This document shows, piece after piece, positions 15,496 through 20,234 of a stretch of DNA of 20,234 bases. Position 1 is the first letter of the stretch, and every line of letters starts with the position of its first letter. Origin of the DNA: a virus; the IMG/VR virus record IMGVR_UViG_3300006750_000114, positions 1-20,234 of that record; one strand, given 5' to 3'. The translations under genes were made by a program, and so were the position numbers. The notes beneath the pieces are model-generated. The model was given only the letters and a program-made list of their open reading frames with translations, searched no databases and was not told where the DNA came from.

Positions 15496-16992
15496 TTATA
15501 ATGTCATCCAATCAAGAACTTTCTGATATTTAGACACTTTTTCATCTGGGTCTAAACTTTTAATCCTACAAGGCCTTGCTCCTTCGAGAGAAGTCCATAA
15601 CGCATCCATCACATCATCGTGCTTTCCTTTGGGGTAAGAAAGAAATTCTGCCTGTGCTTCTGTGTCTTGGGGTCTAAAAAAGAACTCACCCTTAGCAAAC
15701 ATAGGTACTAATGACAGCAATCTCTCTGATTTCCTTGTTCTTGGCTTTACTCCCTTCTCTAATCCTGGGATATATATGTTCTCTTCCAGCATTCTTTTCT
15801 TTACTGCTGCACGTAATGCTTCCTGGTATGCAACAGTTTCTATCTTCATCTTCTTATGTTTGTATTTTTTCCATATATCTATGATTACATCAGGCTGCTC
15901 AGCTGGAGATATCCTCTTTCTAAACAAATCAACAATATATTTGTTCCCTTCATGGTCGATTCCTATGGTAATAGCAACAAAAAAGTCAGCTTTAGCCGAT
16001 AAAGAAGAAGCAGGATCTACGCCTCCATACGTCTCAATAGGTATTATTTTCTCTTCATCACCAACATTTCTAACTAAACAGGGCTGTCCCTCTATTCTTT
16101 TGAAGTCATAATGGTGCATTTTGATCCATTTGGGCTGAAAGGGGGCTTCATCGGGTGACTGAGCTATGTTCATATATTCCTGATAAAACCCATTTATATT
16201 CCCAACAGAAGAGTATTCTGCCTTTATAGCATTTATCCTTGATTGTGGGAACCTTTCTTCCCAAATACTTTCGCCATCATCGTCAATTATACTATACCAC
16301 AGCACTTTCCAGGCCGTAGACTCCTTAGCCCAGTATAGGAAACAGTCCTCAGATATAACTGTTCCTATCATAATTATCCTACCATCATCAGCTAATGAAG
16401 GAATAACAGCTTCTGTCATCCATTTTCTGTTCTTTGCCCTTGCTTCATCAGTAAAAGCATTCAATTCTGACTCAAAATCATCAACAATGATCAAAGTTGG
16501 ACGAGTATCGCCCTCAATAAACCCACGAACCCTCTGACCAGTACCAACTGCTACTACTCTTGTCCCATTTGAAGTAATAATATCGGAATTTGTCCACTTT
16601 TGAGCAGTTTGAGAGCTCATATCACCAAAAAGAGCCTTAAATCGCTCCGAGAACGACAGATGATACTTTATCCTTGACAAGAAATTGATAGATTGTGCCT
16701 GAGATTCGGAGATTATGACAATAAACTCCTCTTGGTCCTCTCTTTTAAAGGCTATACGGTGTAAAGGAAGCAATAAAGAGATGACAGTGGACTTAGCTGT
16801 ACCCCTGGGAGCAGCTATAAGTACGCGTTTTAACTTCTGGTCACGTATTGATCTGTATATTTGATGGTGAAAAGGGGGTGTAGACTTGCGTAAAGCAGTA
16901 GGAAAGCAGTATCTACCAAATAAAGCTATAGATTTCTGTAATTTAGCAAGAGCTTTCTTCCTTTCGTACAATGCCTCATAATCTTCAGCCAT
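15496..16992 (-). CDS. terL: Large terminase subunit
   Basis: A 498-residue DNA-packaging motor. I choose ATG 16992 because AGGTG sits six bases upstream; in-frame GTG 17001 and ATG 16998 are possible. Motifs in order: Walker A AAPRGTAKST (about 61-69), Walker B LIIVDDFE (167-174), coupling motif MIGT (208-211), then the RNase H-like nuclease with GGVDPASS (D326), IETVAYQEA (E385) and KHDDVMDAL (D459, D460, D463). ATPase plus nuclease in one chain is complete, and length is normal. It overlaps the previous gene by 8 bp. It would pump genome DNA through the portal and cut it at the end. Confidence 0.95.
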   Translation of the reverse strand: MAEDYEALYERKKALAKLQKSIALFGRYCFPTALRKSTPPFHHQIYRSIRDQKLKRVLIAAPRGTAKSTVISLLLPLHRIAFKREDQEEFIVIISESQAQSINFLSRIKYHLSFSERFKALFGDMSSQTAQKWTNSDIITSNGTRVVAVGTGQRVRGFIEGDTRPTLIIVDDFESELNAFTDEARAKNRKWMTEAVIPSLADDGRIIMIGTVISEDCFLYWAKESTAWKVLWYSIIDDDGESIWEERFPQSRINAIKAEYSSVGNINGFYQEYMNIAQSPDEAPFQPKWIKMHHYDFKRIEGQPCLVRNVGDEEKIIPIETYGGVDPASSLSAKADFFVAITIGIDHEGNKYIVDLFRKRISPAEQPDVIIDIWKKYKHKKMKIETVAYQEALRAAVKKRMLEENIYIPGLEKGVKPRTRKSERLLSLVPMFAKGEFFFRPQDTEAQAEFLSYPKGKHDDVMDALWTSLEGARPCRIKSLDPDEKVSKYQKVLDWMTL

Positions 16993-17776
16993 CTTCATCA
17001 CCTGGATCGTCAGGACCCAAGGTTTTTACCTCTACTGTCTCTCTTTGCCCTATAAGATGCTGCTCTTCTTCGGCTATTTCATCTAAAAGACGCTTTGTTT
17101 GGGTTGCTTGGAGAGTGTCTGTGGTCCTTATTACTGTTTTATCCTTCATTCCAAGCATATCCTGTATATTTTCTATAACACGTATGAAGTTAGTAAGATC
17201 CTTTTTCTCCTTTGCCATACCTTGTGCTTCTGTCAAGAGGTCTATTACGTCAGATTCCCCGTAACCCTTCTCCTTTAGTAGTCCTTTTAGCTCATCTCTT
17301 ACCATACTTTTAAACTCCTGTGTCTTCATCCATCGTTTATACGTCCTTCTTTCCGATGGGGTTGTTGAATCAAATACAAGATCTATTGCAATATCATACT
17401 GAAAAGTAGTAGAATAGGCTACAGCAAGGTTTTTCCACTTAGTGGAGCCCTTTCTAACCTCTAATTGCGGTTTTCCAGATAATGTGTGATGCGATTTTCT
17501 ACCCTCTGCATTAAACTTTTTACCAGGATACTTAGGATTATGAAAGGCATAACCAAAAGGTAGACGAATGTATGTATTACTAAGACCGTTATTCGCTTCA
17601 TAAGTTTTCTTTTGAAGGACGAGGGCGACATATTTGTCATCGCTGAGAGCGTATTCGCCAATATCAGCGTCCTTCCAATACTTGTACTCGATACCCTCTT
17701 CTTTTGCTTCTCTCTCTGTAAATATATTGTATGACCTTGTACCCTTATCTCTGTGTTTAATCGTTACCTGGTACAT
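16985..17776 (-). CDS. Putative small terminase subunit
   Basis: A 263-residue protein directly before the large terminase, overlapping it by 8 bp, and overlapping the endolysin end by 20 bp. Residues 1-130 are a mixed domain I do not recognise (KYVALVLQKKTYEANNGLSN, YIRLPFGYAFHNPKYPGKKF). Residues about 135-240 are helical: TPSERRTYKRWMKTQEFKSM, LKGLLKEKGYGESDVIDLLT, FIRVIENIQDMLGMKDKT and LLDEIAEEE. That helical half resembles phage proteins that recognise pac sites and form rings, so TerS is the best call. The N-terminal half may be an extra DNA-binding part. Assigned mostly by position. Confidence 0.6.
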   Translation of the reverse strand: MYQVTIKHRDKGTRSYNIFTEREAKEEGIEYKYWKDADIGEYALSDDKYVALVLQKKTYEANNGLSNTYIRLPFGYAFHNPKYPGKKFNAEGRKSHHTLSGKPQLEVRKGSTKWKNLAVAYSTTFQYDIAIDLVFDSTTPSERRTYKRWMKTQEFKSMVRDELKGLLKEKGYGESDVIDLLTEAQGMAKEKKDLTNFIRVIENIQDMLGMKDKTVIRTTDTLQATQTKRLLDEIAEEEQHLIGQRETVEVKTLGPDDPGDEDG

Positions 17777-18164
17777 CTAAGAGCTCAAAATGAGGGAAAT
17801 CATCAAATTTGTTGTCGTGTACATACCAATCTCTATCCCAATCTCCTCCCCAACGTAAGTATATATCAAGCTTTGTCGCTATCCCTAATACGAACCCAGC
17901 AAATAGTGTAAACCTTTCCCTATCATTCCAATCAATAGGATAAGGAACACAATCGATAGCACGAGAGGGGAGTCTATTATGACGTCCATCGGGATATTTA
18001 ACCTTGCTCTTACCTTCTTCATAAAACTTGTCTTGGCGAGCTTGACCCCTATGACCCTCAAGTACAGAGCAATCCACTGTTTTGATAACTTCATTGAATA
18101 CTGCCTGTAACCTATTGTCGCAGCTTTTTAGGGCTTCTCTGCTTCTTTTTCCGAACTTCGGCAT
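17757..18164 (-). CDS. M15-family peptidase, endolysin
   Basis: A 135-residue enzyme of the D-Ala-D-Ala / L-Ala-D-Glu carboxypeptidase type (M15). Zinc ligands are H62 and D71 in GRHNRLPSRAIDCVPYPIDW and H125 in FPHFELLD; E127 or a nearby acid is the likely base. Also seen: LEGHRGQARQDKFYEEGKSK, the usual entry motif. AAGGAGG lies ten bases before the ATG. It has no signal peptide, so it needs a holin or other release route. It would cut peptidoglycan stem peptides at lysis. Being first in the late operon, upstream of the terminase genes, is less common than a lysis cassette. Confidence 0.9.
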   Translation of the reverse strand: MPKFGKRSREALKSCDNRLQAVFNEVIKTVDCSVLEGHRGQARQDKFYEEGKSKVKYPDGRHNRLPSRAIDCVPYPIDWNDRERFTLFAGFVLGIATKLDIYLRWGGDWDRDWYVHDNKFDDFPHFELLDVPGND

Positions 18165-18441
18165 TTGTTAGCTTCCTCCTTAAACTGTCTACACTAACCT
18201 CTCCAGACCACTTAGGAAAGACTAAATCAGACTTTATTGTATCGTATTTACTACCCACGCTATATATATATTATATATATACTACTTAGAGTACTCTTAG
18301 AGTAGCCACTAAGACTTGATGTATATTAAATAGGAGAGTAGTATAACTAAGTGTCGCTATATCCATAGAGGAATTTACGTGTACTGCTTCTTAGAAATCA
18401 ATTAAAAAAAATAATGTGGATTCTTGAAAACTTGCTGTAGA
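18165..18441. promoter_or_regulatory. Divergent control region with AT tract and CTTAG cluster
   Basis: This stretch separates the minus-strand late genes from the plus-strand early genes; I see no gene in it. A purely A/T tract at 18261-18280 holds TATAAT on the minus strand (18275-18270), a candidate late promoter -10 with a poor -35. Pentamers CTTAG or its complement occur at 18211, 18285, 18296, 18309, 18347 and 18390. Two of them belong to an exact direct repeat CTTAGAGTA (18285-18293 and 18296-18304), 11 bp apart, about one helical turn, placed over the expected -35. On the plus strand TTGATG (18316) with TAGTAT (18339) 17 bp on is a weak promoter candidate, as is TAGAAT at 18438. Confidence 0.45.
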
Positions 18442-18455
18442 ATGGGTGTGTGGGA

Positions 18456-18579
18456 AACTCACTCAACAGTCCCCCTCCAATTCTACTGGGCAGGGGTGCC
18501 GTGCCAGCAGAGAATTGAAGGTTGCCTGTTAAGAACGCCCCTCTCTTGCCTCTCGGCAAGCAATGAAGTGACCCGAGTT
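18456..18579 (+). ncRNA. Candidate structured RNA / leader, GC-rich
   Basis: About 54% G+C over 18441-18580, against about 28% in the 60 bases before. Nested pairings read by eye: AACTC 18456-18460 with GAGTT 18575-18579; AACAG 18465-18469 with CTGTT 18526-18530; CAATTCT 18478-18484 with AGAATTG 18511-18517; CTGG-CA 18486-18492 with TGCCAG 18502-18507; and hairpin CTTGCC-TCTC-GGCAAG 18545-18560. Runs CCCCC (18471) and GGGG (18493) could pair further. It ends 31 bases before the next gene, so it could be a leader control element or a separate RNA. Unknown family. Confidence 0.45.
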
Positions 18580-18610
18580 AATCAATAATACTAACTAATG
18601 AGGTTATCAA

Positions 18611-19072
18611 ATGAGTAGTGTAATAAAACAAATCAGTACCATATTATCCTATAAGAACACAGCCAATGTAACAGATGATTATGTACCAAGAAAGAAAGAT
18701 GGTCAAATTGTCTATAAGAACAATGGCAAACCAGAAATGGTTAAGGCTGTGGAACGTGACACAGACGGTAAAGTAGTGTATACCGACAATATCAGAGTTA
18801 CGTTCTTACTCAATGAGGACGAAGAGGTTTCTGCTATCGACCTTAATCCTCGAGAAGAGAAGTTGCTTGAGTCTACGATTCGTCAGATGAAAGGGGAATG
18901 TGAGAGAATTGGCAGAACCCTCAAGTTCAAGCCAGATACGGAATATGATATGAAACCCGAATCACTCAAGATACTTGATGTCATTACCAATGATGACGGG
19001 GTAGAACAACAGTTGTACCAAGTTACGTTCACTCCGAAGTACGAGCGATTCGTCACATCTATCCAATGGTAG
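18611..19072 (+). CDS. Unknown protein, first plus-strand gene
   Basis: A 153-residue protein with GAGGT upstream of ATG. It is acidic and lysine-rich with short repeated lysine/acid motifs in the first half (VPRKKDGQIVYKNNGKPEMV, RDTDGKVVYTD), then beta and helix mixture (REEKLLESTIRQMKGECERI, LKILDVITNDDGVEQQLYQV) and ends FVTSIQW. No TM segment, no signal, one cysteine. I recognise no family. It faces away from the late genes, so it is probably expressed early; small phage early proteins of this kind often act on host or phage regulators, but nothing here shows which. Confidence 0.75.
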   Translation: MSSVIKQISTILSYKNTANVTDDYVPRKKDGQIVYKNNGKPEMVKAVERDTDGKVVYTDNIRVTFLLNEDEEVSAIDLNPREEKLLESTIRQMKGECERIGRTLKFKPDTEYDMKPESLKILDVITNDDGVEQQLYQVTFTPKYERFVTSIQW

Positions 19073-19085
19073 TAGTTCTTTAGTA

Positions 19086-19198
19086 CACGTAACGGTGCCG
19101 TAGGACAGGGGAACCTTTAGTCCACGTAAGTCATCCCAATAACGAATGTAATGCCGTTGACCAGCGGAAGCCGAGGTCACGTAAGTCATCCCAGTAAC
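19086..19198 (+). repeat. Duplicated module: hairpin plus 21-nt sequence
   Basis: A 21-nt sequence that begins CACGTAAGTC and ends CCCARTAAC occurs at 19123-19143 and 19178-19198, with one mismatch, 55 bp apart. Each is preceded by its own hairpin of different sequence: GGAC-AGG-GGAA-CCT-TTA-GTCC (19103-19123) and TGACC-AG-CGG-AAG-CCG-A-GGTCA (19158-19179). A third, partial CACGTAA is at 19086-19092 beside ACGG-TG-CCGT. Conserved strand with variable hairpin suggests an RNA rather than a DNA site. Confidence 0.7.
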
Positions 19199-19241
19199 CA
19201 GAGTGTAGTAAGAGTCATTCCGATGATTCTCTGCACTCTGG
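19198..19241 (+). ncRNA. Long hairpin with UCCG loop
   Basis: CCAGAGTG (19198-19205) pairs with CACTCTGG (19234-19241); after an internal loop AGAGTCAT pairs with ATGATTCT (one G-T pair) around the tetraloop TCCG, a UNCG-type stable loop. It is too complex and lacks the immediate U-run of an ordinary intrinsic terminator, though it may mark the 3' end of the preceding transcript. Confidence 0.6.
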
Positions 19242-19286
19242 TACATTCTTTAAAAGCGTTAAAAAGGGCCTAATTATAAAACATTT

Positions 19287-19369
19287 AAACATAGTCTCAG
19301 ATTGCTGTCCAATAAGGCAGACTTGGAACGGTTAGCATTCAATGATCGCTTACACCTACTGAGATGTTT
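19287..19369 (+). ncRNA. Candidate leader stem before the 54-aa gene
   Basis: AAACAT 19287-19292 plus CTCAG 19296-19300 pair with CTGAG 19359-19363 plus ATGTTT 19364-19369, 11 pairs with a 3-nt bulge (AGT). Inside, GT-CCAA and TTGG-AC can pair near 19307-19328. The stem closes just before the AAGGGG ribosome binding site of the next gene, so it may be a leader element. The fold is judged by eye. Confidence 0.4.
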
Positions 19370-19386
19370 CGATAAAGGGGTAATCA

Positions 19387-19551
19387 ATGAAAATATGCAA
19401 AAAGACAGGTAATCCATATTATGGTTTCACAATAGGTAGTTTTGATAAAGGTATTTACTGGACATTTAGGTATCAACCAGGTACTTGGTTTACATTTGTT
19501 ACAGAAATACGATATAATAGCGGTATTCTCTTTTCATACTATAAACTATAG
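19387..19551 (+). CDS. Small protein (54 aa), unknown
   Basis: ATG 19387 with AGGGG six bases upstream and stop TAG at 19549. The product is rich in aromatic residues and G: MKICKKTGNPYYGFTIGSFD, GIYWTFRYQPGTWFTFVTEI, then RYNSGILFSYYKL. It has two lysines after a cysteine at the start and looks beta-rich, with no TM segment or known motif. The following gene starts nine bases after its stop. Good spacing supports it as a real gene. Confidence 0.62.
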   Translation: MKICKKTGNPYYGFTIGSFDKGIYWTFRYQPGTWFTFVTEIRYNSGILFSYYKL

Positions 19552-19560
19552 AGGTGTTCA

Positions 19561-19743
19561 ATGGCAGACTTAAGACGCAAGACCAACAAAGAGCTCGGAA
19601 GAGAGCTAAACGTTCATCCAAGACAAATCTCTAAAAGCCGTAAGAGAGGATGGATTTGGAAAGACGGCAAGAGGGTGAAATATACCGCACCCTCTATTGG
19701 GTTAATAATGAAGATTCGTAAAACAAAGGGTATAAAGGAATAA
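19561..19743 (+). CDS. Small basic HTH-like protein
   Basis: A 60-residue protein, ATG preceded by GAGGT at six bases, nine bases after the previous stop. Residues about 5-30 (RRKTNKELGRELNVHPRQIS, KSRKRGW) have the pattern of a helix-turn-helix, with NKELGRELNV as helix one and turn, and HPRQISKSRKRG as the recognition helix. The rest is basic (KDGKRVKYTAP, MKIRKTKGIKE). It is probably a DNA-binding regulator of the phage, such as a Cro/excisionase-like or early-late switch protein, and could bind the CTTAG cluster; no direct evidence links the two. Confidence 0.68.
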   Translation: MADLRRKTNKELGRELNVHPRQISKSRKRGWIWKDGKRVKYTAPSIGLIMKIRKTKGIKE

Positions 19744-19752
19744 TCTATTTAT

Positions 19753-19857
19753 ACGGCTAAAGCGAATGCGAGTAGTACTGATACATTGATTGATGTTGAC
19801 ATAAATGGGCGTCTCGAATGTATTTAGTGGACGAAAGCTATATAAAACTTTAGCCGT
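19753..19857 (+). ncRNA. Candidate RNA element with 10-bp closing stem
   Basis: ACGGCTAAAG 19753-19762 pairs exactly with CTTTAGCCGT 19848-19857. Inside, ATACATT 19781-19787 pairs exactly with AATGTAT 19817-19823. It begins nine bases after the HTH gene stop. Function unknown. Confidence 0.45.
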
Positions 19858-19865
19858 TAAACTTA

Positions 19866-19929
19866 GGGATTTTGATAGGCGTAATCAATCGCATAATCAT
19901 TAAGAGAGTTGAATGATACTCTCAATCCC
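19866..19929 (+). ncRNA. Candidate three-way-junction RNA element
   Basis: GGGATT 19866-19871 pairs with AATCCC 19924-19929. The next five bases TTGAT (19872-19876) pair with ATCAA (19884-19888), and GAGAGT 19904-19909 pairs with ACTCTC 19918-19923, which directly abuts the closing strand. The stems meet without gaps on two sides, as in compact folded RNAs. No known ribozyme core is seen. Confidence 0.45.
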
Positions 19930-19959
19930 GTAAAACTTCATTAAATTCTAAAACTTTAT

Positions 19960-19990
19960 TGATAGGGTGCATTACTAACATACCCTATTA
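19960..19990 (+). ncRNA. Short hairpin
   Basis: TGATAGGGT 19960-19968 pairs with ACCCTATTA 19982-19990 (nine pairs, one G-T) around a 13-nt loop. TATAA follows directly. It could be a boundary or processing hairpin. Confidence 0.4.
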
Positions 19991-19994
19991 TAAA

Positions 19995-20096
19995 ATTAGC
20001 CTCTTGATAAACAGCCCCATCATACGCAATGCTTAGACATTGCTATACGATTGATAATGAAACCTGCTCTAACTGGCTGGCAGGCAAGAGGCTAAT
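19995..20096 (+). ncRNA. Candidate leader RNA with 12-bp stem next to the ribosome binding site
   Basis: ATTAGCCTCTTG 19995-20006 pairs exactly with CAAGAGGCTAAT 20085-20096, and AAGGAGG follows at once. Inside are hairpins GCAATG-CTTAGA-CATTGC (20026-20043) and CCTGC/GCAGG (20063-20067/20080-20084), the latter contiguous with the closing stem. CAGCC (20012-20016) could pair with GGCTG in that loop (20075-20079) to make a pseudoknot. The layout suits a cis-regulatory leader for the next gene. Confidence 0.5.
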
Positions 20097-20107
20097 AAGG
20101 AGGTTAT

Positions 20108-20234
20108 ATGTTAAGTGCAGAAGACCAAGGATTAAGTTTCTTGAAAAATAAAATAGAAGATGATGGAACAACATTACAATGCAGTTTCTGTCATATGACA
20201 ATAGAGAATGGGCCTGTATTCTTTAAAGGAACAA
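20108..20234 (+). CDS. Partial gene with CxxC motif
   Basis: An N-terminal fragment (42 residues) that runs off the right edge. ATG follows AAGGAGG at four bases. The start is helical (LSAEDQGLSFLKNKIEDDG) and is followed by LQCSFCHMTIENGPVFFKGT. The CSFC knuckle with a hydrophobic, Gly-Pro-Val stretch recalls the ClpX-type zinc-binding domain, but a second CxxC pair would lie outside the window, so the family is unproven. Confidence 0.6.
   Translation, partial: MLSAEDQGLSFLKNKIEDDGTTLQCSFCHMTIENGPVFFKGT

Follow-up and report, generated by a model that had tools for sequence, protein, structure and literature searches.

HK022 putL and putR are antitermination RNAs whose target is the zinc-binding domain of the RNA polymerase beta' subunit. 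In phage T7, RNase III cuts between early genes, and in riboswitch-like three-way-junction aptamers such as the purine riboswitch, a P1 helix closes two hairpins with conserved loops. An HK022 put RNA measures about 70 nt and has two stem-loops; putL directly follows its promoter, and putR lies about 270 nt from the start of its transcript (PMC9378689). We analyzed IMG/VR virus record IMGVR_UViG_3300006750_000114, a stretch of 20,234 bases (hereafter the window) in which minus-strand late genes stand opposite a plus-strand run of small genes starting at 18611. An original prediction had read three intergenic gaps of this window as a series of structured RNAs. Two elements in these gaps, RNA-A and E2, covary in related contigs, and put is the closest known thing to them in position and kind. 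With middling confidence, we propose that they are cis-acting leader elements of an early transcript, with put-like action as the likeliest mechanism.

The likeness to put is that of short structured RNAs in an early phage transcript: RNA-A would match putL in position, and the two hairpins of E2 (about 64 nt) recall the two stem-loops of put. Unlike put, RNA-A is one long hairpin behind a conserved block, and E2 has a closing helix making a three-way junction. T7 RNase III sites are similar in being strong irregular hairpins between small early genes, but RNA-A and E2 carry conserved loops that a generic RNase III stem would not need. As in purine-riboswitch-like aptamers, P1 of E2 closes two hairpins with conserved loops, and a T-rich tail follows in two loci (L204 and L220); E2 differs in having no Rfam match and in that its hairpin-1 loop is not conserved in one locus, L006.

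The Rfam search proposed by the original prediction yielded no match for either element. Against Rfam 15, we found no match in the window at the gathering cutoff, none at E <=5 for 18165-20234 and none in six loci that carry E2 (two of which, L006 and L013, also carry RNA-A). ARAGORN found no tRNA or tmRNA genes in the window. The titles and opening lines of abstracts listed in searches of the open-licence literature held no description of RNA-A or E2. Uncultured phages are poorly surveyed for structured RNAs, and here two covariation-supported families stand at the head of a replication operon.

Covariation in RNA-A and E2

At the head of the plus-strand replication operon lies RNA-A (18425-18535), made up of a 37-nt conserved block, positions 1-37 of its covariance model R1, followed by a long hairpin in which the internal loop CACGG/CCAGGUUG is conserved in sequence. 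E2 lies in the third gap. The features are:
18425-18461, plus strand: RNA-A block, with boxes AAAAATT, AGAAT and GATATAC at fixed spacing (by information content)
18462-18533, plus strand: RNA-A hairpin, composed of an outer helix P1, P2, P3, a C.G pair with AG/U bulges, P4 and an apical loop
19866-19929, plus strand: E2, about 64 nt, with P1 (GGGATT/AATCCC) closing two hairpins in a three-way junction

To collect related loci, we scanned viral contigs with TerL, endolysin and the RNA-A sequence pattern (80 of 313 TerL-related and 80 of 560 endolysin-related stretches). RNAalifold gave no consensus pairs on a MAFFT alignment of 21 RNA-A sequences (A1), in our reading because the 3' arms shift in register, and afterwards we used a 12-sequence core with the structure taken from the fold of L021. 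In the unfitted 12-row MAFFT alignment, 10 of the 24 pairs changed on both sides, and the covariation score was 0.206 versus 0.131 +/- 0.018 in shuffles (0/500 as high); sliding the partners lowered the paired cells from 77% to 20-68%. Fitting 57 distinct rows to R1, which makes the alignment lean to the structure, resulted in a score of 0.362 versus 0.118 (0/500 shuffles). We also performed an alignment-free test in which 3' arms were exchanged among sequences and pairing energies compared. True arms paired at -16.7 kcal/mol versus -12.5 kcal/mol for exchanged arms (4.2 stronger; z -10.1, n=54), and the result held for 31 sequences below 75% identity (z -8.0). That the arms of RNA-A are kept by compensatory change is well supported. 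A further helix closing the whole of RNA-A, pairing the RNA start with a downstream CCCC, seemed credible on inspection but was dropped, as 806 of 5000 permutations were as good in partner exchange.

From its conservation, the block at 18425-18461 appears to be an early promoter or a protein site. It had no coevolving partner in the partner-exchange tests. In the window and in L005, GGGAAACTC replaces the GTGATATAC of most sequences, which makes the window a divergent member of RNA-A; in the window, this part can form a small hairpin by itself. The small hairpin within the block showed no sign of coevolution (z about 0).

A profile of the block (E <=1e-5) matched 28 of 91 deduplicated stretches upstream of endolysin, all oriented toward the early genes; seven of these 28 had served as seeds for the profile, L001 is the record of the window itself, and near copies occur among L051/L057 and L062-L064. 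Iterating the search gave 55 distinct RNA-A sequences at E <=1e-3 in 202 loci, many of which we had collected through TerL, endolysin or the block. R1 hit the window at 18425-18535 (46 bits, E 1.9e-7) and gave one match each in 61 of 88 sources and in 30 of 50 whole records; since both lists were chosen mostly for earlier matches and include model rows, these counts speak to single copy and specificity and not to frequency. L168, among 33 stretches matched by the RNA-A pattern, is not RNA-A by sequence. The pattern had no matches in bacterial genome contigs, and neither of two weak matches to named phages was accepted.

E2 came to light through a gap-3 stretch that matches L013 (79% over 82 bases). 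Hairpin 1 has an AG/AUA internal loop and hairpin 2 a GT-TGAATGAT-AC loop, a conserved octaloop UGAAUGAU closed by GU/AC. With sequence patterns and a covariance model, R2, we found E2 in seven contigs: the window, L006, L013, L203, L204, L216 and L220 (L184 is the contig of L013 and L164 that of L006). The search patterns themselves dictated part of the loops; L006, however, was first found by R2. In the unfitted seven-row alignment, 92% of cells were paired, 7 of the 13 pairs changed on both sides, and the covariation score was 0.498 versus 0.178 +/- 0.045 (0/500 shuffles). Folded alone with 25-base flanks, six of the seven carriers give the E2 junction, with P1 letters differing by contig, and the window copy (19866-19934) folds at z -3.54. 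The helices of E2 are thus well supported as kept by compensatory change, and covariation in related contigs, scored against shuffles and close in kind to the check proposed by the original prediction, supports both elements.

The carriers of E2 differ in their relation to the window. TerL of L006, L013, L216 and L220 is 68-81% identical to the window TerL; L204 has four replication genes in common with the related 52.9-kb contig G001 and no match to the 21 window ORFs (open reading frames); and L203 (5,930 bases) has no match to any of the 21 window ORFs or the 36 G001 ORFs. E2 lies on the early-gene strand in the window, L006, L013, L204 and L220, and its six G.U against one A.C pair fit a plus-strand RNA, so that the acting strand leans to plus. 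The place and orientation of RNA-A and E2 are kept in the carriers checked.

The octaloop with stems of at least four pairs occurred 7 times versus a mean of 2.2 for 120 permuted 8-mers; as these reached up to 11, the octaloop alone is no evidence. Ten viral stretches matched the E2 patterns, of which six were kept, L217, L219 and L221 lacking the layout and L218 being ambiguous. Four pattern matches in bacterial genome contigs were missing the stems. Weak R2 matches were not accepted (five of seven at E 0.0099 to 0.084; four of 11 at E 0.17 to 0.43), nor were three weak matches to named phages and one to plasmids.

By eye, the E2 closing stem is continued by a T-rich tail in L204 (about 900-1080, reverse complement) and L220 (10081-10160), where E2 could lie inside a terminator. 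In L171 (9330, reverse complement; G006 38273-38338), a record that has RNA-A, hairpin 2 of E2 occurs alone as GACTGT-TGAATGAT-ACAGTT within GTTAC/GTAAC.

Structure across the three gaps

The gaps between ORFs measure 446 bases (gap 1, 18165-18610), 314 bases (gap 2, 19073-19386) and 364 bases (gap 3, 19744-20107), exactly as originally described. The two G+C islands are real (0.563 at 18442-18560 and 0.492 at 19073-19200, versus 0.394 window-wide), and the claimed inverted repeats are present as five pairs plus AT-rich palindromes around 18261-18300. The paired arms are complementary over 78% (18462-18484/18511-18533), 92% (19197-19208/19231-19242), 10/10 (19753-19762/19848-19857), 79% (19955-19968/19982-19995) and 12/12 (19995-20006/20085-20096) of their bases. 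When we compared fold energies with shuffled sequences, gap 3 as a whole stood out (z -3.80), followed by gap 2 (z -2.21, owed to one hairpin with z -6.68). The right part of gap 1 (18424-18610) gave z -1.52 and the left part of about 260 bases (18165-18423) z +0.40, and structure across all of gap 1 fell with the latter. In this unstructured left half, at 18261-18300, AT palindromes TATATATATATTATATATATA and a CTTAGAGTACTCTTAG palindrome lie between the divergent late and early genes.

Exact stems told a similarly uneven story. Gap 3 holds two stems of at least 10 pairs versus a shuffled mean of 0.04 (0/500 as high), with no excess at 8 or more pairs (80/500 shuffles as high). Gap 1 holds four of at least 8 pairs versus 0.76 (4/500), mostly from the AT palindromes, and gap 2 shows no excess (190/500 at >=7 and 147/500 at >=8 pairs). 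In the late region, 49 windows of 364 bases had a mean of 0.51 stems of at least 8 pairs (maximum 4). The plus-strand 120-base windows standing out in the gaps were 19160-19279 (z -6.13) and three in gap 3 (-2.18 to -2.65). Outside the gaps, 8.7% of 184 such windows fell below z -2 (mean -0.38), and 19580-19699, inside a 60-aa gene, reached -4.13 on the plus strand. Because fold energy is uneven and an in-gene window reaches -4.13, fold energy alone is insufficient and homologs are needed. The reading of the gaps as structured RNAs accordingly stands for RNA-A and E2; the other hairpins of gaps 2 and 3 rest on fold energy. These other elements, with z values computed on stretches that we chose, are:
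19103-19143, plus strand: gap-2 motif, copy 1, a small hairpin with a GGAA loop, then direct-repeat copy CACGTAAGTCATCCCAATAAC
19159-19198, plus strand: gap-2 motif, copy 2, of like layout, with stem letters changed on both sides
19197-19242, plus strand: strong gap-2 hairpin, 20 pairs in the predicted fold (z -6.68 over 19195-19247)
19753-19857, plus strand: gap-3 element with a 10-bp closing stem ACGGCTAAAG/CTTTAGCCGT (z -3.41 over 19752-19860)
19955-19995, plus strand: gap-3 hairpin (z -3.26 over 19950-19996)
19995-20096, plus strand: gap-3 element with a perfect 12-bp closing stem (z -3.72 over 19995-20097)

The earlier view that the elements differ from one another fails in part, as gap 2 has two tandem copies of one motif. 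A 21-base repeat CACGTAAGTCATCCCARTAAC at 19123 and 19178 (spacing 55) is 20/21 identical (95%). The motif stretches fold no better than shuffles (z +0.20 for 19092-19150; z -0.88 for 19150-19203), and we found no exact copy of the repeat core in the remaining 220 of 221 loci. The hairpin at 19197-19242 could serve as an RNase III site, and the 12-bp stem of 19995-20096 stops right ahead of the AAGGAGG belonging to the gene at 20108. In the related loci searched, we found no homologs of gap 2 or of the gap-3 pieces other than E2; gap 2 also had no homolog in named phages.

How the elements may act

Among the roles originally listed, leader regulation fits the position best, and no positive evidence for a packaging RNA emerged. 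On this leader reading, the three gaps would be parts of an early, replication-side plus-strand transcript started by the conserved promoter-like block at 18425-18461. RNA-A would be a folded leader, the first thing transcribed, and E2 another RNA, evolving separately and lying downstream in that transcript, with other hairpins around; both would act in cis on the early operon. We infer that RNA-A works as a plus-strand RNA. The folded nascent RNA might bind the host RNA polymerase transcribing it and change elongation or termination in a put-like manner. Polymerase modification, taken on its own, would be the leading specific mechanism, and we put it forward as a tentative, somewhat doubtful one. 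Were the elements to act on polymerase, they would be a natural case of protein-free antitermination besides put and a source of small, portable transcription-control parts.

A sister set extends the block beyond RNA-A: 15 more distant sequences carry a like box, AAAAAT....TTAGAATG.GTG. In 12 of the 15, a perfect-stem intrinsic terminator with a T run starts +134 to +145 after the box, and we therefore read the box as starting a transcript in that direction. This suggests that the box is a promoter reused before different RNAs; homology of the sister-set hairpin part to the RNA-A hairpin was not demonstrable by profile (E 0.005 to 17) or by alignment. Of the 13 sequences in which an ORF of at least 60 aa follows, 12 (all except L126) have the next one in convergent orientation; the two other contigs end before any such ORF.

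Several results weigh against the leader reading. By our own inspection, there is no -35 box at a fixed place by the block, and a sigma-70 scan does not report the block. Across 17500-20234, we found no plus-strand intrinsic terminator (one site was reported, on the minus strand, and the hairpin at 19197-19242 was not), so nothing was found for an antiterminator to pass. R1 had no match at E <=10 in the whole HK022 record and the best R2 match reached 11.8 bits (E 1.1), which leaves the likeness to put at best in the way of working. The RNA-A hairpin of the window (18461-18535) folds at a modest z of -2.40, and the right part of gap 1 at -1.52. In the unfitted 12 rows, further pair types were not raised (14 versus a shuffled mean of 16.3), and sliding the partners by -1 gave a similar score (0.213). 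The arm test was equally strong on the minus strand (z -12.4 and -9.9), the mean fold z of 51 RNA-A sequences was -2.29 on the plus and -2.72 on the minus strand, and G.U versus A.C pairs came to 77:47 in the fitted alignment but 10:21 in the unfitted one. With both strands alike and these counts in conflict, RNA-A may act from either strand, or not as RNA at all. In L203, the junction is not the best fold of the E2 copy. Finally, the convergent next ORFs of the sister set suit a trans-acting RNA better.

The alternative that fares best, though we consider it unlikely, is that the hairpins shield the early mRNA or direct its cleavage and leave polymerase unaffected, with 5' stem-loops acting against RNase E and 19197-19242 and 19995-20096 being RNase III sites or ribosome-site controls. 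The strong intergenic stems (z -6.68 and -3.72), one of them just before an AAGGAGG, fit such a role, as does the RNase III cutting between early genes of T7. A mere stabiliser, however, would not need the RNA-A loop CACGG/CCAGGUUG, nor the invariant octaloop and AG/AUA loop of E2.

Next in rank, and also improbable, RNA-A could be a DNA element such as an origin, a cos/pac packaging site or an operator, its inverted repeat forming a cruciform or protein site. The strand symmetry of the RNA-A fold speaks for this, together with the three boxes at fixed spacing in nearly all rows, the A-tracts, and the single copy per record between the late and replication modules near TerS/TerL. Yet the arms diverge and still pair, and they carry asymmetric conserved bulges, a common pattern in RNA and an uncommon one in protein sites on DNA; for E2, which lies in the same operon, the pair counts favor plus-strand RNA.

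Slightly behind comes the equally unpromising idea that RNA-A is a stand-alone small RNA acting in trans, for example as a decoy for a host RNA-binding protein, polymerase or a defense sensor, with the operon merely lying behind it. The terminators and convergent ORFs of the sister set would suit this, but the box alone, and not the hairpin, is demonstrably common to that set. In the window, we found no plus-strand terminator behind RNA-A, and the first gene starts 75 bases after the R1 match.

Returning to action on polymerase, a bolder reading is that RNA-A and E2 are two new classes of nascent RNA that reprogram host transcription early, with E2 a portable module exchanged among phages and read through its octaloop by a conserved host or phage factor; we regard this as speculative and improbable. 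The E2 copy in L203, which shares no detectable protein with the lineage, makes such an exchanged RNA module directly testable. That the structures are by-products of composition or chance is very improbable: 18165-18423 and most 120-base windows of gaps 1 and 2 do lie within the shuffled range, the in-gene window reaches z -4.13, and the remaining hairpins have no conservation support and z values from chosen stretches, but the covariation of RNA-A and E2 and the z of -3.8 for gap 3 argue against it.

Gene neighborhood

The genes flanking gap 1, with the late genes (which also include portal) on the minus strand, are:
15496-17001, minus strand: TerL, a late gene
16985-17776, minus strand: putative TerS, assigned by gene position
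17757-18164, minus strand: endolysin, a late gene
18611-19072, plus strand: first gene of the plus-strand operon, 153 aa, no family

The window TerL is less than 60% identical to all 591 matching phage-collection records and less than 30% identical among the 25 best listed. The 153-aa gene has a weak relative at the matching position in one of 12 records, G001 (E 5.9e-6, 29% identity). The plus strand of G001 carries replication genes (Sak4-like, primase-helicase, ThiF and HNH). Phage RNA polymerase (PF00940) was found in none of the 12 records, in a search whose control matched nowhere either and which therefore carries no information.

Other genes of the relatives bear on the content of this operon. 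A peptide deformylase gene lies at L195 18716-19123, early in the G001 plus-strand operon. In the regions L196 1163-4382 and L204 4143-5769, relatives have a ThiF/E1-like gene, which in L204 adjoins a JAB-like gene. G001 also encodes two proteins, a small one of 79 aa and one of 514 aa with HPHLSGGKPCFG, neither with a Pfam match, which we take to resemble a ubiquitin-conjugation set. The replication operon possibly includes a ubiquitin-like system.

Among the matches listed, and judged by eye with no statistics, many long contigs seem to end within about 5 kb of TerL on its upstream side, which is more frequent than on the downstream side. These ends could reflect fixed genome ends or a hard-to-assemble early region.

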